DNA of 64,000 nucleotides from Frankia sp. RB7. Its GTDB lineage: Bacteria; Pseudomonadota; Alphaproteobacteria; Rhizobiales; Xanthobacteraceae. The stretch covers positions 1-64,000 of the forward strand of contig JAUEPE010000030.1 of NCBI GenBank assembly GCA_030403585.1, given 5' to 3'. The translations under genes were made by a program, and so were the position numbers. The notes under the pieces were generated by a model, which was not told where the DNA came from, did not search any database, and was given only the letters and a program-made list of their open reading frames with translations. Positions within the stretch are counted from its first letter, which is position 1. Each line of letters starts with the position of its first letter. Below, piece by piece: positions 8,550-62,607 of this stretch.

Positions 8550-9839
8550 CTACGACGCCTTGCGATGCGGAGCGGATCCGCGGCCGGTCCTGCCCTTCAG
8601 CTTCTTGAGCAGCGGTCCGAGCAGCGAACGCTTCGGCTTCTTCACCTCGCCGCGCCCGGCGAGGCGGTTGGCCATATTCTGGAACAGCTCGGTGGTGCGG
8701 TGGCTCTTGGAGACCTCCGCGATCATCTGGCCGTTATTGGCGGCGGTCGAGAACAGCTTTGAATCGAACGGGATCACCGCCAGCGGCTGGCTCTCCATGG
8801 TCTTGGCGAACGATTTGACATCGATCTCGGCGCGCTTGTGCATGCCGACCTGGTTGATGCAGTAGAGCGGCGGCCGGTCGTTCGGCCGCGCCGCCTTGAG
8901 CACGGTCAGCATGTTCTTGGTGTTGCGCAAATTGGCGAGATCCGGCTCGGCCACGATCACGATGTCGTCGGCATTGACCAGCGCGCGCTTGGTCCAGGCC
9001 GACCATTGATGCGGCACGTCGAGCACGATGCAGGGCGTGGTCATGCGCAGCGTGTCGAAGATCGCATCGAACGCTTCGGCGCCGAAATCATAGACGCGAT
9101 CGAGCGTGGCGGGAGCAGCAAGGAGGCTGAGGCGCTCGGTGCATTTGGCGAGCAGGCGCTCCATCAGCGCCGTGTCCGGCCGGTCCTGCGACAGCACCGC
9201 GTTGGCAATGCCCTGCGCCGGATCCTGGTTGTAGTCGAGGCCGGCGGTGCCGAAGGCGAGGTCGAGATCGATCACGACGGAATCGAGCGCGAGGTCGCGC
9301 GCGATGGTCCAGGCCACGTTGTGTGCGACGGTGGAGGCGCCGACGCCGCCCTTGGCACCGACCACGGCGATGACGCGCCCGGTGATGATGGCCTCAGAGG
9401 CCGAGAACAGGCTGCAGATCGAGCGCACGACATCGAGGGTTTCGACCGGCCCGATGACGTAGTCGTTGACGCCGCGACGCACCAGCTCGCGATAGGGCGC
9501 GGTGTCGTTGGGATTGCCGATCACGACCACGCGGGTGCCGGGATCGCAGACGCCGGCGAGGTCGTCGAGGCCTTCGAGGATGTCGCGCGTGCCGTCGGAT
9601 TCGATCACGATCACGTTCGGCGTCGGCATCGTGTCATAGAGTTCGATCGCCGCGGCGAGGCCGCCGCTCTTGGCGGTGAGATGCGCCTTTGCGAGACGGC
9701 GGTCCTGGCCAGCCGCGGTCATCGCGGCGAGCGTCTGCTCGGTCTCGCAGAAGGCCTGCACCGAGATCCGGGGAACCGGCGCAATGTGTTCCTCGGGATG
9801 CTGCGGATCGTCCGCCTCTTCGTCGTGGATGCCCGTCAT
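8550..9839 (-). CDS. cpaE: CpaE/TadZ, polar-localising ATPase of the Tad pilus
   Basis: A 429-residue protein with an N-terminal receiver-like domain (about 25-145) that lacks a clear phospho-acceptor site, then a ParA/MinD-type ATPase. The deviant Walker A is GAKGGVGAST at residues 161-170, followed by VVIDLDLAFGTAGLDYNQDP. Known: CpaE/TadZ places the Tad pilus machine at the cell pole. The C-terminus is basic (KLKGRTGRGSAPHRK). Its ATG overlaps the cpaD stop by 4 bases, so translation is coupled. It is the last gene of the minus-strand cpaBCDE run. CpaF, which often follows cpaE, is absent. Confidence 0.95.
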   Translation of the reverse strand: MTGIHDEEADDPQHPEEHIAPVPRISVQAFCETEQTLAAMTAAGQDRRLAKAHLTAKSGGLAAAIELYDTMPTPNVIVIESDGTRDILEGLDDLAGVCDPGTRVVVIGNPNDTAPYRELVRRGVNDYVIGPVETLDVVRSICSLFSASEAIITGRVIAVVGAKGGVGASTVAHNVAWTIARDLALDSVVIDLDLAFGTAGLDYNQDPAQGIANAVLSQDRPDTALMERLLAKCTERLSLLAAPATLDRVYDFGAEAFDAIFDTLRMTTPCIVLDVPHQWSAWTKRALVNADDIVIVAEPDLANLRNTKNMLTVLKAARPNDRPPLYCINQVGMHKRAEIDVKSFAKTMESQPLAVIPFDSKLFSTAANNGQMIAEVSKSHRTTELFQNMANRLAGRGEVKKPKRSLLGPLLKKLKGRTGRGSAPHRKAS

Positions 9840-10570
9840 TTGCCTGTATCGCTGAGTTTGGCCTTGTCAGCCTCGGGATAAGTGGTCGCGGTGGAAGCGC
9901 CCTTGCGGTAGCGGTCGAACGCGATGTCGCGCCGTGCGGTATAGGCCGGCGTCTCCGCGCGGGGCTGCTCGAGGTCGGCGGGGTTGTCGATCATCGCGGC
10001 AAGATTGCGCTGGGTGGCGCAGCCGAGATTGAAGTAGGGCTGGTTCTCGTTGTGGCCGGGATCGAGGATCGATGGTCCCATGTCCTCGGGCCACAACCCG
10101 CAGGGGCCGGCGACCGCCGCGATCCTGGAGTAGCTCAGCCGGATGGTCGGCAGCAGGGCGGGATCTTCGGGACGATAGGAGTGCTGGACGATGGCGCGCG
10201 ACGGCACGCCGCTGCTGCCGAGCACGCCGCGGATTTCGCGATAGGTCGCAGCAGCCGCGCGCGAATTGGTGGTGTCGATGGGCACGTCGACGACGACGGA
10301 GCCGGTGCCTTCGCGCACCCAGTCCTGGGCAATGCCCATCACGTCGGCGTGCTGCGCGGTCGAAAGTCCGCCGCGCGCCTTGCCGACGAAAATCACGATC
10401 GAGCGCTTGGCTTCCTGCACCGCGATCGGGTGACGCATGCGGTAGTCGGTCGGCACCGTCTGGGTGGTGGCGACGTCGCCCGTGGTGTTGCAGGCTCCCA
10501 GCATGACGGAGAGCCCCGTCAGCGCGAGCGCGATGCGCAAATTGCGACGTCGATCATTTGTCTTCGTCAT
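9836..10570 (-). CDS. cpaD: CpaD, pilus assembly lipoprotein
   Basis: A 244-residue outer-membrane-associated lipoprotein of the Tad apparatus. Seen: signal peptide with lipobox LGAC followed by NTTGD near residue 27, and the family segments DYRMRHPIAVQEA and the C-terminal NLGCATQRNLAAMIDNPADL. Known: CpaD acts with the secretin CpaC. It lies 63 bases after cpaC and overlaps cpaE by 4 bases, consistent with one operon. Confidence 0.95.
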   Translation of the reverse strand: MTKTNDRRRNLRIALALTGLSVMLGACNTTGDVATTQTVPTDYRMRHPIAVQEAKRSIVIFVGKARGGLSTAQHADVMGIAQDWVREGTGSVVVDVPIDTTNSRAAAATYREIRGVLGSSGVPSRAIVQHSYRPEDPALLPTIRLSYSRIAAVAGPCGLWPEDMGPSILDPGHNENQPYFNLGCATQRNLAAMIDNPADLEQPRAETPAYTARRDIAFDRYRKGASTATTYPEADKAKLSDTGK

Positions 10571-10633
10571 CGCTTCATCCCCTCTTGCCCAAGTCTTGTC
10601 CCAAGTCTTGTCCCGGTCCCCAAACCGTTGGTG

Positions 10634-12154
10634 TCAGTCGATGATGAAGCCAAAATCACCGCGATTGCCCTCGATCGGATCGACGCGGCGCGCGATGCCG
10701 TAGAGGCGGTTCATGCGGCCGAGCAGCGCCGACTGCGCATCCGACGACGGCGCGAAGCCGTCATCGGGCCGCGATAATTCCTTCTGGGCGACCGCGCGCA
10801 CCACATAGGGCGTCACGATCACCATCAGTTCGGTCTCGTTGTTGACGAAGTCCTGGCTGCGGAACAGCGCGCCGAGGATCGGCACCTGATCCATGCCGGG
10901 CAGGCCGTTGACGGCCTGCTTGGTCTGCTGCTGAATCAGGCCGGCCATCGCCATCGAGCCGCCCGAGGGAATTTCCAGCGTCGTCTCGGCGCGACGGGTC
11001 TGGACCGAGGGGATGGTGATCGAGTTGGTCGAGCTCGAGGACAGCGCCTGCGACACGGTGATGGAGTTCTGGTTCGACAGCTCCGAGACCTCGGTCATCA
11101 CCCGCAGGCTGATGCGGCCTTCGCTCAGCACGACCGGGGTGAAGTTCAGCGAGATGCCGAACTTCTTGTAGGTGATCTGGGTGGTACAGACATGCGTGGT
11201 CGGGTCGCAGGCGTAGCCCCCGGGAATTGGAAATTCGCCACCGGCGATGAAGGTCGCCGATTCACCGGAGATCGCCGTCAGGCTCGGCTCGGCCAGGGTG
11301 CGCATCACGCCGGCGGTTTCCATCGCGCGCATCGTGGCGCTGACGGTGGCAACGCCCTTGGCGAGGCCGGCAACGCCGAGCCCGTTGCCGCTGACCAGCG
11401 GTCCGCCGCTGGCCGAGAACGGGTTGGAATTGTTGAAATTCACCACTGCGGTCCCGGCGTTCAGGCTGGCGCTGAGATCGACACCCAATTGCTTGACGAT
11501 GTCGCGGCGGACTTCGCCGACGACGACCTTCAGCATCACCTGATCGCGGCCGCGCACGACGATGTTGTTGACGACCTTGTCGGGGCCGCCGACGAGCTTG
11601 GCGGCGACGTCGCCGGCCTGCTGGGCCTCGACCGGGCTCGACACCGAGCCGGTCAGCATTACGCTGTCGCCGACGCCCTCGATCTGCACGCCCGGTAGCG
11701 CTGAGCGCAGCGCCGTGCGCATGCCGTTGAGGTCGCGCTTGACCGCGATGTCGTAGGAAGCGACCTGCTGGCCGTCGGCGGAGAAGAACACTACGTTGGT
11801 CTGTCCGACCGTGCCGCCGATGATATAGGCGCGCTGCGCCGAGCGGATCACCGCGTTGGCGATCTTGGGATCGGCCACCAGCACGTCCTTGACCTCGCGC
11901 GGCAGGTCGATGACGACCGACTTGCCGACGCCGAGCGACAGTGAACGGGTCCGCGCCGGCGCGATGGTCGCAACCGGCGACACGCCGAGGTCCGGCGCCT
12001 GCATCGGCGCCTGGTCTCCGACCGGCGCATCCGCAGCGCGGACGAAATCGGGGGCTGCGACCAGCCCCAGTAACAGCATTGCCCCTGCCCAGAACGAGCC
12101 GGCGCGCTTCCCCCGAATGCGCAGGCCCATCCGATTGTCCCCGTACTTCATCAT
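10634..12154 (-). CDS. cpaC: CpaC/RcpA, outer-membrane secretin of the Tad pilus
   Basis: A 506-residue type II/III secretin family protein that forms the outer-membrane channel for the Flp pilus. In order: signal peptide (about 15-41), the pilus/flagellar N-terminal domain (SLSLGVGKSVVIDLPREVKDVLVADPKIANAVI), a BON-like segment near residues 150-200 (VMLTGSVSSPVEAQQAGDVA), then the secretin domain with VPILGALFRS near the end. Two adjacent ATGs are possible at the start. It lies 7 bases after cpaB and is clearly co-transcribed. Confidence 0.96.
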   Translation of the reverse strand: MMKYGDNRMGLRIRGKRAGSFWAGAMLLLGLVAAPDFVRAADAPVGDQAPMQAPDLGVSPVATIAPARTRSLSLGVGKSVVIDLPREVKDVLVADPKIANAVIRSAQRAYIIGGTVGQTNVVFFSADGQQVASYDIAVKRDLNGMRTALRSALPGVQIEGVGDSVMLTGSVSSPVEAQQAGDVAAKLVGGPDKVVNNIVVRGRDQVMLKVVVGEVRRDIVKQLGVDLSASLNAGTAVVNFNNSNPFSASGGPLVSGNGLGVAGLAKGVATVSATMRAMETAGVMRTLAEPSLTAISGESATFIAGGEFPIPGGYACDPTTHVCTTQITYKKFGISLNFTPVVLSEGRISLRVMTEVSELSNQNSITVSQALSSSSTNSITIPSVQTRRAETTLEIPSGGSMAMAGLIQQQTKQAVNGLPGMDQVPILGALFRSQDFVNNETELMVIVTPYVVRAVAQKELSRPDDGFAPSSDAQSALLGRMNRLYGIARRVDPIEGNRGDFGFIID

Positions 12155-12161
12155 GTCCCCA

Positions 12162-12980
12162 TCACTTCTGTGACGTCAGTTGTCGCGCCTGCACGCCGTA
12201 GCGGATCACGTTCACGCCGCTCGAACGCTGTTTGAGCGCCTGGTCCTCAGGTGCGCCGTCGGAGGCGCTGGCATCGGCGATGCTGCGCAGTGCAAGTGTC
12301 AGCGTGCCGCCCTGGCGCGAGGCCGAGAGCGTCGCGACCTGGTCGGGCCGGAGCTCGAGCGTGACGGTCTTGCCGACGACGGCGTTCTGGCCGTCCTTCT
12401 CCTTCGGCGCCTGGTCGATGGCGAGCACGCGGATGTTGGTCAGGACGACCTCTGACAGGATCAGGTCATTGCCGCCGGTCGAGCCGTTGGCGCCGTCGGG
12501 ATTCTTCAGGCGGCGCGTCAGGACGATGTCGACGCGGTCGTTCGGCAGGATGAAGCCGCCGGCCGCGGTCTCGGCGGAGATCTCGGTGGACACGGCCCGC
12601 ATGCCGGACGGCAGGATCGCGGCCATGAAGCCGGAGCCGTCGGCTCTCACCAGCTTCTGCTCGCGGATCGGCTCGCCCTGCATCAAGGGTACGCGCGCGA
12701 TCGAGCCGGCGATCTGGGTCTGTGCGTCGGGCCTGCTGTCGCGGCGGATGAAGGCGCTGCTTGCGGTCGATTGCGGCCAGGTCTGCCATTGCAGATCCTC
12801 GGCCTTCACGGCCTGGCCGAGCTGAATGTCGGATTTGGCGACGAGCACCTCGACCGTCGGCAGCTTCTCGGCCACCGGGAGCGCGGGCGCGGGTTTGTTG
12901 TCGTAGCCGCTCGCCAGATACGCAGCGACGCCGCCGGCGCCCAGCGCGATGACGAGAACGACAATGCGTGCGGTGTTCAT
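12162..12980 (-). CDS. cpaB: CpaB/RcpC, Tad pilus assembly protein
   Basis: A 272-residue protein with one N-terminal membrane or signal segment (RIVVLVIALGAGGVAAYLASG), then an SAF-type domain (PTVEVLVAKSDIQLGQAVKAEDLQWQ) and a later RcpC domain (GFILPNDRVDIVLTRR). Known: CpaB sits in the periplasm next to the secretin. It is the first gene of the run here; cpaA and Flp pilin genes, which usually precede cpaB, are missing. Upstream is a 443-base gene-free region that must hold the promoter. Confidence 0.94.
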   Translation of the reverse strand: MNTARIVVLVIALGAGGVAAYLASGYDNKPAPALPVAEKLPTVEVLVAKSDIQLGQAVKAEDLQWQTWPQSTASSAFIRRDSRPDAQTQIAGSIARVPLMQGEPIREQKLVRADGSGFMAAILPSGMRAVSTEISAETAAGGFILPNDRVDIVLTRRLKNPDGANGSTGGNDLILSEVVLTNIRVLAIDQAPKEKDGQNAVVGKTVTLELRPDQVATLSASRQGGTLTLALRSIADASASDGAPEDQALKQRSSGVNVIRYGVQARQLTSQK

Positions 12981-57322: not shown

Positions 57323-58011
57323 AAATCCAGGTCCACGTAGGTCCGCGATGCCGGCACGCCCGCCAGCCATTCGCTCAGCAGCGGACGGAACGACGGGCGG
57401 GATTTCACCCGCGCGTACCACGCCTTTGCTGCGTCGTCCTCGCTCCATGGCACGTCGCCCAGATAGTCGATCGCCGAGAGATGCGCCGCGGCGGCGAGAT
57501 CCGCGTAGGTGGGCCGGTCGCCGGCGAGGAAGTTACGCGTCTGCGCCAGCCAGCCGATATAGGCCAGATGATAGCGCACGTTGGCCTTGGCGGCGCGCAT
57601 CACGTCCGCCGACGGCGGTCCGCCGCCACTGTCCTCGCTCATGAAGCGCTTGTAGATGCGCTCGGTGACGAGGGGATGGGAGACTTCCTCGAAGAATTTT
57701 TCGTTGAACCAGGCCATCAGCCGGCGCACCTCGACGCGCTCGGCGATCGTCTCCGGCATCAGCCGCTTGGGGCCCATCTCGGCGCCATAGGCCTCATCGA
57801 GATACTCGGCGATGATGGCCGCGCCGGGGATCGGCGGTTGTTCGTCGTCCACCAGCACCGGCGTCGTGCCGGCCGCATTGAGCAGCAGAAATGCCTCGCG
57901 CCGTTCCCAGCTGCGCTCCTCGGCCAGCTTCAGCTCGAGCCCGTATTCGCCTGCGATCAGACGGATGAAGCGCGAATGCGGACAGAACGGATGATGAAAC
58001 AGCGTAAACAT
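57319..58011 (-). CDS. FzlA-like glutathione S-transferase-fold protein
   Basis: A 230-residue GST-fold protein. Seen: an N-terminal thioredoxin-like half ([55 protein letters not shown]) and a helical half, ending in an acidic TYVDLDF tail. Known: Caulobacter FzlA, a GST relative lacking GST activity, binds FtsZ and is needed for constriction; its C-terminal tail is important. The tail and length here fit that group, but I cannot exclude an ordinary GST. The stop overlaps the queG start by 4 bases. Confidence 0.85.
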
Positions 58012-58180
58012 GAAGCCTTTGACTATTTGATGGTGCTTAAGAATCCATCAATGTTTGTGCGGCGCCACACTAGTCTTTCAAAACCGCGAGGCAAGGGCGC
58101 GTTAGCGCATTTTGCGATTGCGAGCGAGGGGCGAATAGGCGAGAAGAGCCCCGCTTTTCCAGCGGAAATGGACCGTAAAT

Positions 58181-58987
58181 ATGTCAGATGCAATACGGGC
58201 AGTGATCCTCGGCATCATCGAGGGTGTGACCGAGTTCCTTCCCGTTTCCTCGACCGGCCATTTGCTGCTTGCGGAGCGCTTCTTCGGCCTTGGCGAGGGC
58301 GCTTTCTGGGATTCGTTTACGGTTTTGATCCAGCTCGGCGCGATCCTCGCGATCGTCGTGCTGTACTTCAAGAAATTGTGGGACGTCGCGATCGGCATGT
58401 TCACGGGCGATGCCTATGCGCGCCGCTTCGTGATCGGCGTGCTGGTGGCGTTCCTGCCTGCGGTCGTCGTCGGTCTCGTCGCCGGCAAATACATCAAGAG
58501 CATGCTGTTCAATCCGTGGGTGGTGTGCTTCTCGCTGATCGTCGGCGGCGCCATCCTGTTGTGGGTCGACCGGCTCGATCTCAAGGTGCGCGAGCGTGAT
58601 GCCACCAAGTTTCCGCTGCTGATGTACCTCTATATCGGCATCGCGCAGTGCATCGCGATGATCCCGGGCGTGTCACGCTCCGGCGCCAGCATCGTCGCGG
58701 CGATGTTTTTGGGCGCGGACAAGCGCGCGGCGGCAGAGTTCTCGTTCTTCCTCGCCATCCCCACCATGATCGGCGCGTTCGCCTACGATTTCTACAAGAA
58801 CCGCTCCGAGATGACGATGGACCACATGGGCATCGTCGCGATCGGCTTCGTGGTGTCGTTCATCACCGCGATCATCGTGGTGAAGGCGTTCCTCGGATAC
58901 GTCACCCGCCACGGCTTCGTGGTATTCGCCTGGTGGCGCGTCATCGTCGGCACGCTCGGCCTGATCGCGCTGGCGCTCGGCCGTTAA
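58181..58987 (+). CDS. uppP: UppP, undecaprenyl-diphosphate phosphatase
   Basis: A 268-residue membrane phosphatase that recycles the lipid carrier for peptidoglycan and other envelope polymers. Seen: GIIEGVTEFLPVSSTGHLLL with the acidic/Ser loop, and MIPGVSRSGASIVAAMFLG, the two inverted-repeat active-site halves, among about eight helices. It confers bacitracin resistance when overproduced (old name BacA). It is followed after 94 bases by a DprE1-like gene in the same direction. Confidence 0.97.
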   Translation: MSDAIRAVILGIIEGVTEFLPVSSTGHLLLAERFFGLGEGAFWDSFTVLIQLGAILAIVVLYFKKLWDVAIGMFTGDAYARRFVIGVLVAFLPAVVVGLVAGKYIKSMLFNPWVVCFSLIVGGAILLWVDRLDLKVRERDATKFPLLMYLYIGIAQCIAMIPGVSRSGASIVAAMFLGADKRAAAEFSFFLAIPTMIGAFAYDFYKNRSEMTMDHMGIVAIGFVVSFITAIIVVKAFLGYVTRHGFVVFAWWRVIVGTLGLIALALGR

Positions 58988-59081
58988 CCTTTGACAATCT
59001 GCTGACGCGCCTCAACGCAATATCAGCTTTTGACCGGTAGGCAGTGTCCGGAGCGGGGTGGCCCGCAGGCGGAGCTGACCA

Positions 59082-60413
59082 ATGACCCTCGTCAGCGGCT
59101 GGGGGCGTTTCCCGGTCGTCGATAGCGAAGTGCTGCGGCCGCGGTCGTTCGAGGCCGTGGGTGCGGCTGTCGCCGACGTGACCGGCTCCGTGGCCCGGGG
59201 CAATGGCCGCGCCTATGGCGATGCCGCGATCGGTGCCATCAGGACGATCGGGATGACCGGGTTCGACCGGGTCAGGTCGTTCGATCCGGCGACCGGCCGC
59301 ATCCGCCTGGAAGCCGGCGTGCTGCTGTCCGACCTGATCGACACCTTTGGCCCGCGCGGCTTCCTGCCCTTCGTGGTTCCGGGCACGCGGTTCGTGTCGG
59401 TCGGCGGCGCCATCGCCGCCGACGTGCATGGCAAGAACCATCATGGCGAGGGCGGTTTTGGCCGCTACGTCGACAGCATCTTGCTGCGCACCGGGCAGGG
59501 CGAGACCATCGAGATCTCGCGCGAACAAAACTCCGATGCCTTCTTCGCGACCATCGGCGGTATGGGCCTCACGGGTGTGATCCTCGAGGCCACGATGCGG
59601 CTGCGCTCCGTGGAGACCGGCTGGATCCGCGAGCGCGTGATCTCTGCATCCGATCTCGACGCTGCGCTGCGCGCGCTCGAGGCGAGCTTCTCCGCGACCT
59701 ATTCGGTGGCGTGGATCGATTGCGCGGCGCGCGGGCGCGACCTCGGCCGCTCGCTGATCTATCTCGGCGAGCACGCTCGCGTCGATGAGTTGACTGAGGG
59801 CGCCGATCGCTTTCCCGTCGGCAAGAATCCCGGGCTCGCCGTGCCGATCGATCTGCCGTCGATGACGCTCAATCGCATCAGCATTCGCGCCTTCAACGCG
59901 CTCTATTACCGCATGGGCGCAAGGCGCGCCGGCGGCGACCATGTGGTCTCGCTCTATCCGTATTTCTTTCCGCTCGACAGCATCGGTGACTGGAATCGCA
60001 TCTACGGACGGCGCGGCTTCCTCCAGCATCAATGCGTGATCCCGGAGCCAGGTGCGCGCGCCGTGCTCGGCGACATCCTCGATCTTGTCTCGAAGCGCGG
60101 CGATGCCTCGTTCCTCGCGGTGCTGAAGAAGCTCGGCCATGGCGATGGCCTGTTGTCGTTTCCGTTGCCCGGCTACACGCTGGCGCTGGATTTCCCGGTG
60201 AAGGGCGACATCCTGAATTTCCTCGACGAGATCGACCGTCTCGTCGTCGCCGCCGGCGGACGGCTTTATCTCGCCAAGGACGCGCGCCAGTCGCGCGCGA
60301 CGTTCGAAGCCGGCTATCCCGCTCTGTCGCGCTTCAACGCGATCCGCAAATCGCTCGATCCCGCCCAAAACATCCGCTCAAAGCTTTCACAACGCCTGTT
60401 CGATGAGGTTTAA
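59082..60413 (+). CDS. DprE1-like FAD-dependent decaprenylphosphoryl-ribose oxidase
   Basis: A 443-residue FAD enzyme. The sequence follows mycobacterial DprE1 closely: ARGNGRAYGDAA, PGTRFVSVGGAIAADVHGKNHH, an AYPYFFPLD-like LYPYFFPLDSIGDWNRIYG, and the C-terminal RLYLAKDARQSRATFE. Known: DprE1 oxidises DPR, and DprE2 then reduces it to decaprenylphosphoryl-arabinose. At the position of the drug-sensitive Cys387 of DprE1 (motif NICVDFP) this protein has Ala368 (TLALDFP). The next gene, 3 bases on, is DprE2-like, so the pair makes a predicted arabinosyl donor. Confidence 0.93.
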   Translation: MTLVSGWGRFPVVDSEVLRPRSFEAVGAAVADVTGSVARGNGRAYGDAAIGAIRTIGMTGFDRVRSFDPATGRIRLEAGVLLSDLIDTFGPRGFLPFVVPGTRFVSVGGAIAADVHGKNHHGEGGFGRYVDSILLRTGQGETIEISREQNSDAFFATIGGMGLTGVILEATMRLRSVETGWIRERVISASDLDAALRALEASFSATYSVAWIDCAARGRDLGRSLIYLGEHARVDELTEGADRFPVGKNPGLAVPIDLPSMTLNRISIRAFNALYYRMGARRAGGDHVVSLYPYFFPLDSIGDWNRIYGRRGFLQHQCVIPEPGARAVLGDILDLVSKRGDASFLAVLKKLGHGDGLLSFPLPGYTLALDFPVKGDILNFLDEIDRLVVAAGGRLYLAKDARQSRATFEAGYPALSRFNAIRKSLDPAQNIRSKLSQRLFDEV

Positions 60414-60416
60414 GCC

Positions 60417-61157
60417 GTGACGTCACGCAAGACCGTTCTGGTGCTCGGTGGCTCCTCCGATATCGGCCGCGCCGCCGCACGCGCCTTTGCCAAGGCCGGC
60501 TACGATGTCGGCCTCGCCGGCCGCGATGCCACAGCGTTGGAGCCTGACGCGGCGGATTTGCGCGCGCGCTACAATATCGAAGCGAGCACGTGGACATTCG
60601 ACGTGCTCGACACGGCTTCGTTCGACGGCTTTGTCGCTGGCCTTCCCGTGTTGCCCGAAATCGTCGTCTCGGTCATTGGCCTGCTCGGCGTGCAGCCAAC
60701 CGCCGAGAGCGACCTCGCGCACGCCACCACGATCATGCGCTCGAACTACGAGGGACCGTCGCTGATCCTTGGCCTGTTCGCCGAAAAATTTCTGGCGCGC
60801 GGCAATGGCACGATCGTCGGCGTGTCGTCCGTCGCGGGCGATCGCGGCCGCGCCTCGAACTATGTCTACGGCTCGGCCAAAGCCGGCCTCTCCGCGTTCC
60901 TGTCAGGCCTGCGCGCCCGCGCCAGCCGTGGCGGCGTTCATGTCGTCACCGTAAAACCCGGCTTCGTCCGCACCAAGATGACGGAAGGCATGAAGCTGAT
61001 CGGCCCGCTCACCGTCGACGCGCCGATCGTCGGCGATGCGATCCTCAGCGCCGTCGAGAAGAAGACCGACGTCGTCTATGTCAGCGGCAAATGGCGTCTC
61101 GTGATGCTCATCATCAAGACGCTGCCGGAGGCGGTGTTCAAGAAGCTGAAGTTTTGA
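60417..61157 (+). CDS. DprE2-like short-chain dehydrogenase/reductase
   Basis: A 246-residue SDR with a GTG start, 3 bases after the DprE1-like stop. Seen: the NAD(P) motif VLVLGGSSDIGRAAARAFAK, the catalytic Ser in VGVSSVAGDRG and YVYGSAKAG (Tyr-x3-Lys), and the C-terminal KTLPEAVFKKL that matches the tail of DprE2. It should reduce the keto-intermediate to decaprenylphosphoryl-D-arabinose. Its operon partners for arabinose transfer are outside the window. Confidence 0.92.
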   Translation: MTSRKTVLVLGGSSDIGRAAARAFAKAGYDVGLAGRDATALEPDAADLRARYNIEASTWTFDVLDTASFDGFVAGLPVLPEIVVSVIGLLGVQPTAESDLAHATTIMRSNYEGPSLILGLFAEKFLARGNGTIVGVSSVAGDRGRASNYVYGSAKAGLSAFLSGLRARASRGGVHVVTVKPGFVRTKMTEGMKLIGPLTVDAPIVGDAILSAVEKKTDVVYVSGKWRLVMLIIKTLPEAVFKKLKF

Positions 61158-61184
61158 AGCTGCTGCAGCCGCGATAGCGGTCTG

Positions 61185-61317
61185 CTCCCTCGCCCCGTTC
61201 TTACGGGGAGAGGGTTGGGGCGAGGGGCCTCTATCCGCACGTGAGGTCGTCGAGAGACCTGTACCCCCTCACCCGATCGCTTCGCGATCGACCTCTCCCC
61301 GCAAGCGGGGCGAGGTT
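61185..61317. repeat. GC-rich hairpins, family F, behind the DprE2-like gene
   Basis: Three hairpins: ctccctcgccccg / cggggagaggg (61185-61213), cgatcgc / gcgatcg (61274-61290) and acctctccccgc / gcggggcgaggt (61291-61317). Between them is little else. They fill the convergent junction with the NDUFA9-like gene. Confidence 0.75.
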
Positions 61318-61327
61318 AGGAACAACC

Positions 61328-62293
61328 TCACGCGCTCTTGCGCTGGAACTGACCCTGCGGGCGGAAACGCCAGAGGTATTGCGGGGCGATCGCTTCCAGC
61401 GAATCGGCGGTGATGCCGAGGCCTTCCAGCGTGAGCCCGGCGGCCTTCGCCGCATCCGACACGACATTGTCGCGCTCGAGCAGGGTCACCTGGTCCGGCG
61501 TCAGCTTCAGCGCGCCCGGCGCGAATTGCAGGAAGTTGGCCTTGAAGCGGGCGAGGCCGAACGGCAGCGAGATTAGCGCCGGCTTGCGATCGGCAATAGT
61601 GACGATGGCCTCGATGATCTCGCGCATGGTCAGCACTTCGGGCCCGCCGAGCTCGTAGGTCGCGCCCGCCTTGGCCTTGCCGTCGACGGCATCCGCGATC
61701 GCGGTGGCGACGTCGCCGACATAGACCGGCTGCATCTTCGTCTCGGCGCCGATCAGCGGCAGCACAGGCGACATCCGCGCCAGCGCGGCAAAGCGGTTGG
61801 TGAACTGGTCCTCGGGGCCGAATATCACTGACGGACGGAAGATCGTGGCCGACGGTACCGCGGCCGTCACAGCCGCCTCACCGGCCGCCTTGGCCTTGGC
61901 GTAGCGCGAGGGTGATTCGGCATCGGCGCCGATGGCGGAGACGTGGATCAGCCTTGCGCCGACGGCGGCTGCCGCCTTGGCGACGGTCTCGGCGCCCTTG
62001 GCCTGGACGGCGTCGAAGGTCTGCCCGCCGCCCTCCGTGAGGATGCCGACCAGATTGATCACGACATCCGAATCGCGCACCGCCGCCTCGACCGAGGCCG
62101 GGTAGCGCAGATTGGCCTGGATGGTGTGGACCTGCCCGACCTTGCCGGAGGGCTGGAGGTATCCGGCCAGTTCCGGCCGCCGCACCGCGACCCGGACCCG
62201 GTAATCCCGCCGGCACAGCGCGCGGACGACATTCCGGCCCAAAAACCCCGATCCGCCGAAAACCGTGACGAGAGTTTCCGTATTCGATGCCAT
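61328..62293 (-). CDS. NDUFA9-like complex I-associated SDR-fold protein
   Basis: A 321-residue Rossmann-fold protein. Seen: VTVFGGSGFLGRNVVRALCRRDYRVRVAVRRPE (NAD(P) binding), YAKAKAAGE and the atypical-SDR layout without a clear YxxxK catalytic pair, as in NDUFA9, an accessory subunit of complex I. Alphaproteobacterial homologues are often annotated complex I NAD(P)H-binding. Enzymatic activity is doubtful; a binding or assembly role is inferred. ATG 62293 marks the start of homology. Confidence 0.87.
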   Translation of the reverse strand: MASNTETLVTVFGGSGFLGRNVVRALCRRDYRVRVAVRRPELAGYLQPSGKVGQVHTIQANLRYPASVEAAVRDSDVVINLVGILTEGGGQTFDAVQAKGAETVAKAAAAVGARLIHVSAIGADAESPSRYAKAKAAGEAAVTAAVPSATIFRPSVIFGPEDQFTNRFAALARMSPVLPLIGAETKMQPVYVGDVATAIADAVDGKAKAGATYELGGPEVLTMREIIEAIVTIADRKPALISLPFGLARFKANFLQFAPGALKLTPDQVTLLERDNVVSDAAKAAGLTLEGLGITADSLEAIAPQYLWRFRPQGQFQRKSA

Positions 62294-62437
62294 CGGCCTG
62301 GGTCCATTCCTGCGGGAGAGTAGCGTGTTATCAGGCTTGTATCGGCCCGGTTTGCAATGCGCAATCGGCATCCCGAACCATGAATTGACAACCGCGTCAC
62401 TGAACCGTAGTAACCGCCTCCGTGCCCCAAACGGCAT

Positions 62438-62524
<87 letters not shown>

Positions 62525-62607
62525 CCCCCAACTCAAGTAGTTGAAATCGCTCATTTGCAGGGAATTTGAGCCGCTGACCGGTACACAAGACCGGGACACA
62601 GCGCTCA

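Follow-up and report, generated by a model that had tools for sequence, protein, structure and literature searches.

The 64,000-nucleotide window analyzed here (C61:1-64000 in contig coordinates) encodes two adjacent oxidoreductases, one DprE1-like and one DprE2-like, which quite probably act as the two-step epimerase in a pathway to polyprenyl-phosphoryl-D-arabinofuranose. Judging from sequence homology, the donor that they help to make is very probably polyprenyl-phosphoryl-arabinofuranose, and we consider it likely that the pathway is real and in use. Donors of this kind are known and occur outside actinobacteria too; the surprise lies in the decayed phosphatase half of a UbiA-type phosphoribosyltransferase, which is encoded shortly beyond the end of the window and would carry out the first step. 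A gap in the pathway is thus given a named enzyme, UbiA, together with a candidate transferase of the GT87 family.

The gene for the DprE1-like protein, a flavin adenine dinucleotide (FAD)-dependent oxidase of 443 amino acids (polyprenylphosphoryl-ribose 2'-oxidase), spans 59082-60413 on the forward strand. Residues 4-439 aligned with the profile NF053785 at 419 bits (E 2.5e-125), and the Mycobacterium smegmatis DprE1 structure 4aut aligned with residues 5-439 (E 1.1e-83). It is the only DprE1 in the genome, where the other seven matches to the DprE1 model reached at most 57 bits, which puts its own score far outside the range of chance. The DprE2-like protein, a short-chain dehydrogenase/reductase (SDR) of 246 amino acids that begins with GTG, is encoded at 60417-61157 (forward strand). 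It matched NF053786 and passed the cut-off of PRK07102 (NF005489); among solved structures, mycobacterial DprE2 (21gq_C, E 4.9e-32) matched best, followed by an unrelated SDR at 2.6e-21. The two genes are separated by 3 bases, and 94 bases separate the first of them from uppP upstream; the coordinates, profiles and solved structures thus agree with the initial annotation, which had described a full-length DprE1/DprE2 pair behind a lipid-carrier phosphatase gene. Within the DprE1-like protein, H116, K118, Y45, Q315, Q317 and K399 are invariant in 39 relatives. From their aligned positions, we take H116 to be the FAD-linking His, K399 the catalytic Lys and Q315/Q317 the Gln residues of the DprE1 pocket. 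Alignment with 4aut placed A368 at a Cys of M. smegmatis DprE1, and the Asn two residues before that Cys is replaced by Thr. As this Cys is presumably the target of covalent benzothiazinones, the change to Ala predicts insensitivity to these compounds.

A phosphoribosyltransferase partner, which the initial annotation expected somewhere in the genome, is present at C61:65171-66532 on the same strand as the pair, 1.2 kb past the end of the window and 4 kb after the DprE2-like gene. This protein, the fourth of four UbiA matches in the genome, passes PRK08238, and its next-best models are those of decaprenyl-phosphate phosphoribosyltransferase. It matched the solved DPPR synthase 8j8j (E 1.2e-24), retains the motif ND..D...DR.HPTKR.R, and the predicted model of a close homologue (L183) superposed on 8j8j with a TM of 0.82 on the target. 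In that model, the remnant of a HAD phosphatase forms a small alpha/beta part before the UbiA domain. These features suggest that the protein is the first-step enzyme of the pathway, of the DPPR synthase type. Together with the full-length homology of the pair, they make the arabinose donor proposed in the initial annotation probably the right product.

To follow these genes through the genus, we used 117 Bradyrhizobium genomes drawn from a larger group, with E cut-offs of 1e-60 for DprE1 and for both GT87 types, 1e-40 for UbiA and 1e-10 for DUF6798. DprE1 was found in 57 genomes, of which 46 (the window's own genome and those with 78-94% identity) fall in the lineage of the window and 11 (57-62%) in a second lineage. 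Most genomes have either both DprE1 and UbiA or neither of them: 55 genomes have both, two have DprE1 only (G227 and G254), six have UbiA only and 54 have neither. Fisher values for gene pairs (8.5e-24 and 2.7e-15) were tempered by a tree of 70 genomes, from which G211, the 11 genomes of the second lineage and all but 25 sampled genomes without DprE1 are missing. We also fetched 46 related loci, with genes called by a simple script based on GC-position scores, so that single spurious or missed open reading frames (ORFs) are likely. The uppP-DprE1-DprE2 arrangement is kept in all 45 of these whose contig reaches uppP, the remaining contig beginning just before DprE1. The ratios of nonsynonymous to synonymous substitution rates (dN/dS) were 0.157 for DprE1, 0.135 for DprE2 and 0.162 for the UbiA domain, as compared to 0.122 for UppP, using 300 random pairs per gene from 32-44 of 46 genomes after sequences outside length windows had been dropped. 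Hence, DprE1, DprE2 and the UbiA domain are under purifying selection. In addition to the genus sample, 80 named loci with the nearest DprE1 relatives, some of them short, contained DprE2 in 77 cases, UbiA in 65, GtrA in 43 and a nearby GT87 in six. The usual order in these relatives is HAD-UbiA, GtrA, DprE1 and DprE2, in some cases followed by a GT-C gene.

The HAD half of the UbiA protein has lost much of its motif set. In the window lineage, the second Asp of motif I is replaced by Glu or Gln, the Lys of motif III and the second acidic residue of motif IV are absent, and in two of 41 rows the first (nucleophile) Asp of motif I is gone as well. All five residues are kept in 0/41 rows of the window lineage and 0/10 of the second Bradyrhizobium lineage, as compared to 46/49 from other taxa and four of six Bradyrhizobium UbiA proteins that do not adjoin DprE1. 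A few genomes may be doubled in these rows, some named loci being also among the genus genomes; the alignment used 44 of 47 named UbiA rows, and 18 of the 65 UbiA-bearing named loci fall outside the rows, having no HAD part or a motif I off pattern. From the lost residues, the domain is in all likelihood catalytically dead, although the remnant is still under some constraint (dN/dS 0.27, as compared to 0.162 for the UbiA half). Since these residues are lost, another phosphatase would have to remove the 5'-phosphate, as in mycobacteria. In Rhizobium sp. IRBG74, arabinosylation is reported, in the available text of the study, to be lowered but not abolished when the putative phosphatase NoeN is lost (PMC5080398), so a stand-in phosphatase is possible. 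The decayed half raises the question, posed likewise by the noeN mutant, of which enzyme removes the 5'-phosphate in Gram-negative arabinose pathways. One fuller account, which we regard as rather unlikely, is that the HAD half died in both DprE1/DprE2-bearing Bradyrhizobium lineages while attached and under selection, that a non-dedicated membrane phosphatase (UppP being one candidate) removes the 5'-phosphate or that it is removed only after epimerization, and that the remnant is structural or regulatory. Two further loci bear on this protein family. In G233 (L141:9524-12270), a GT87 gene adjoins that of a second UbiA whose HAD is degenerate, in a stretch without DprE1. In G222 (L136:7478-10825), a genome without DprE1, a HAD-UbiA gene adjoins one for a DUF6798 polytopic protein, and the donor made from this locus may carry ribofuranose in place of arabinofuranose.

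Following the phosphoribosyl transfer, the pathway that we propose would continue with removal of the 5'-phosphate, in the window lineage probably by a phosphatase other than the attached HAD. DprE1 would then oxidize C2 and DprE2 would reduce it back to give the arabinose epimer. An unlinked flippase would flip the lipid, after which a GT-C enzyme in the periplasm would transfer the arabinose to a glycan or protein of the cell surface. Neither GtrA nor a GT-C enzyme was found beside the pair among the genes called for the locus, and the sole GtrA match of the genome falls within a 375-residue protein at C118 that by eye starts like a GT2 enzyme and adjoins another membrane protein. The GT-C enzyme that the initial annotation suggested seeking in the genome has a candidate that is unlinked: of three GT87 proteins, that encoded at C39:62682-64085 shares about 50% identity with the GT87 that adjoins DprE1/DprE2 in the second Bradyrhizobium lineage. 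This type occurs in 39/117 genomes, and 38 of these 39 bearers have DprE1 (the exception is G201). On the 70-genome tree, four independent pairs underlie the link, of which an average of 3.5 agree and none disagree. By sequence, the GT87 protein matched nothing among solved structures up to E 10. The model of a homologue from B. altum (L197) showed a GT-C fold whose nearest structure was PimE (Z 25.7, root mean square deviation 3.8 over 354 residues), with mycobacterial arabinosyltransferases scoring lower (Z about 7-9). A literature search found no paper linking GT87 with AftC, and the AftC family was not used. We take the GT87 at C39 as a lead and not as proof, its chance of being the transferase falling somewhat short of even. 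A DUF6798 polytopic protein was also considered as the transferase and rejected; it adjoins UbiA in six of 13 bearers (G205, G215, G222, G231, G244 and G308) and has no match in the window genome. An EamA-family transporter gene (L264:6605-7486, C39), which possibly encodes the flippase, is adjacent or close to the GT87 gene in seven of 21 loci examined.

Several observations weigh against an arabinofuranose pathway with this transferase. Both oxidoreductases fall below their NCBI equivalog cut-offs, the DprE1-like protein with 419 versus 500 bits (NF053785) and the DprE2-like protein with 188 versus 250 bits (NF053786); we do not file the pair as NCBI equivalogs of DprE1 and DprE2, which they are predicted to resemble in function. 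On the 70-genome tree, DprE1 changes only five times, and some genomes of the window lineage have lost the pair, which is therefore dispensable. The C39-type GT87 was not found in 19/57 DprE1 genomes at the threshold used, and with only four independent pairs a sign test cannot reach 0.05, so the Fisher value overstates the GT87 link. Because the best solved match of GT87 is a mannosyltransferase, its donor need not be arabinose. Lastly, literature searches for arabinofuranose in Bradyrhizobium found no report in the texts available.

We weighed whether the pathway is instead a decaying relic, with a dead phosphatase, a vanished GtrA, no linked transferase and the remaining genes on their way out. 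This would fit the incomplete HAD motifs in 41/41 rows, the confinement of the genome's sole GtrA domain to a GT2 fusion elsewhere and the loss of the pair in several relatives. In one of these, G252 (L142), DprE2 remains between uppP and an epimerase-like gene, DprE1 was not found and UbiA is truncated with a stop; this is a pathway caught in loss. However, the low dN/dS of DprE1, DprE2 and the UbiA domain in 32-44 relatives, near that of uppP, the invariant catalytic residues of DprE1 and the mostly joint retention or loss of DprE1 and UbiA make a relic improbable. An even less probable alternative is that the product of the pair is some other keto or epimer sugar lipid. While scores below the equivalog cut-offs and several changed pocket positions, including A368 and the nearby Thr, would allow this, among solved structures DprE1 and DprE2 are by far the best matches, and a phosphoribosyltransferase is linked or co-occurring.

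Two further alternatives concern what surrounds the arabinofuranose pathway and not its product. UppP (BacA), the undecaprenyl-diphosphate phosphatase encoded at 58181-58987 on the forward strand (PF02673, E 7e-81; NF001389 above the cut-off), might belong to the system, whether by serving as the missing 5'-phosphatase or by supplying lipid carrier that the pathway ties up. Its gene adjoins the pair throughout the window lineage, the HAD domain appears dead, and in Corynebacterium a DprE1 block is reported, as far as the available text of that study goes, to starve the cell of carrier and to be relieved by more UppS (PMC3937683), so such pathways are sensitive to carrier supply. Yet UppP is the sole BacA protein of the genome, and uppP is present in all 25 sampled genomes without DprE1. 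In 22 of these it is directly followed by the epimerase-like gene that here follows DprE2; of the other three, one has DprE2 alone, one reaches a contig end and one has another ORF after uppP. The pair thus occupies, or was lost from, one spot behind a housekeeping uppP, and the shared position may reflect a single ancestral event. UppP also appeared in only 12 of the 80 named loci, all 12 from the window's Bradyrhizobium lineage, and in 0/68 fetched stretches outside it. Because the gene is a sole copy and keeps its position in relatives that lack the pair, its neighborhood says little; we set UppP aside as an unproven pathway part, find such a role improbable and treat uppP as an adjacent housekeeping gene. 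The idea that the arabinose goes onto Tad pilins, which the initial annotation had raised for the Tad genes in the window, gains no support and is highly unlikely. A second GT87, at C5:57502-58839, does lie behind a small Flp-like pilin gene (L263:6896-7132, by eye). This pilin-adjacent type occurs in 46/117 genomes, and only 14 of the 46 have DprE1, as compared to 57/117 overall, a negative association that led us to reject it as a route to pilin arabinosylation. It also serves as an internal control for the C39-type GT87, whose association with DprE1 is positive. The window showed no Flp-like pilin motif, and its Tad genes (8550-12980) lie 46 kb from the pair and by eye resemble only cpaB, C, D and E. 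At L263:5500-7132 (C5:57499-59131), the GT87 gene behind the Flp-like pilin gene adjoins two that encode unassigned polytopic proteins, and the stretch is possibly a pilin glycosylation locus not tied to DprE1.

When compared to the mycobacterial decaprenyl-phosphoryl-arabinose pathway (Rv3806c UbiA, Rv3807c, DprE1/DprE2, Rv3789 and Emb/Aft GT-C enzymes), UbiA, DprE1 and DprE2 are homologous over their length, and a separate phosphatase would have to act, as Rv3807c does there. The genome differs in its decayed HAD attached to UbiA, in the lack of a linked GtrA-type flippase, in a candidate transferase of the GT87 family in place of Emb, and in A368 at the presumed benzothiazinone target. The second Bradyrhizobium lineage (B. 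altum L197; L126) has the same four enzyme types and likewise a degenerate HAD. There, in contrast, HAD-UbiA, DprE1 and DprE2 are adjacent, usually with the GT87 gene directly beside DprE2, and UppP is not a neighbor. The available text of Kelly et al. 2024 (PMC11127046) describes three-component systems in which a flippase and a GT-C enzyme accompany a UbiA phosphoribosyl synthase with its HAD phosphatase, and DprE1/DprE2 are present where the sugar is arabinofuranose. The UbiA-HAD fusion and DprE1/DprE2 are shared with these systems, as would be a GT-C enzyme in the last step, whereas here the HAD (PRP) domain lacks its motifs, the candidate GT-C enzyme is encoded outside the locus, and no GtrA flippase is among the genes called there. 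Since that survey also assigned DprE1/DprE2 homologues to arabinofuranose-bearing polysaccharides with three-component systems, the earlier view that such donors outside actinobacteria decorate pilins or Nod factors was too narrow. As the noe genes are described in the available text, the noeCHOP and noeCNHOP systems for Nod-factor arabinosylation in Azorhizobium and Rhizobium sp. IRBG74 (PMC2443382, PMC5080398) likewise bring UbiA-, DprE1- and DprE2-type genes to rhizobia; the genes of the window differ in lying outside a nod operon. With these genes in hand, the question of what carries D-arabinofuranose in Bradyrhizobium becomes approachable by simple deletion.

The neighbors of the pair are fzlA, uppP, the epimerase-like gene and, downstream of UbiA, genes for RNase D, lptC and lptA, then lptB and rpoN (the last two named by eye). 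No sigma-70 site turned up when 57900-62600 was scanned for promoters. A tRNA-Leu gene (cag) lies at 62438-62524, after the epimerase-like gene and before that for UbiA. How far UbiA lies from the pair differs among relatives, the spacing ranging from about 4 kb up to 28 kb in G143 and 117 kb in G298, as at an island insertion site.

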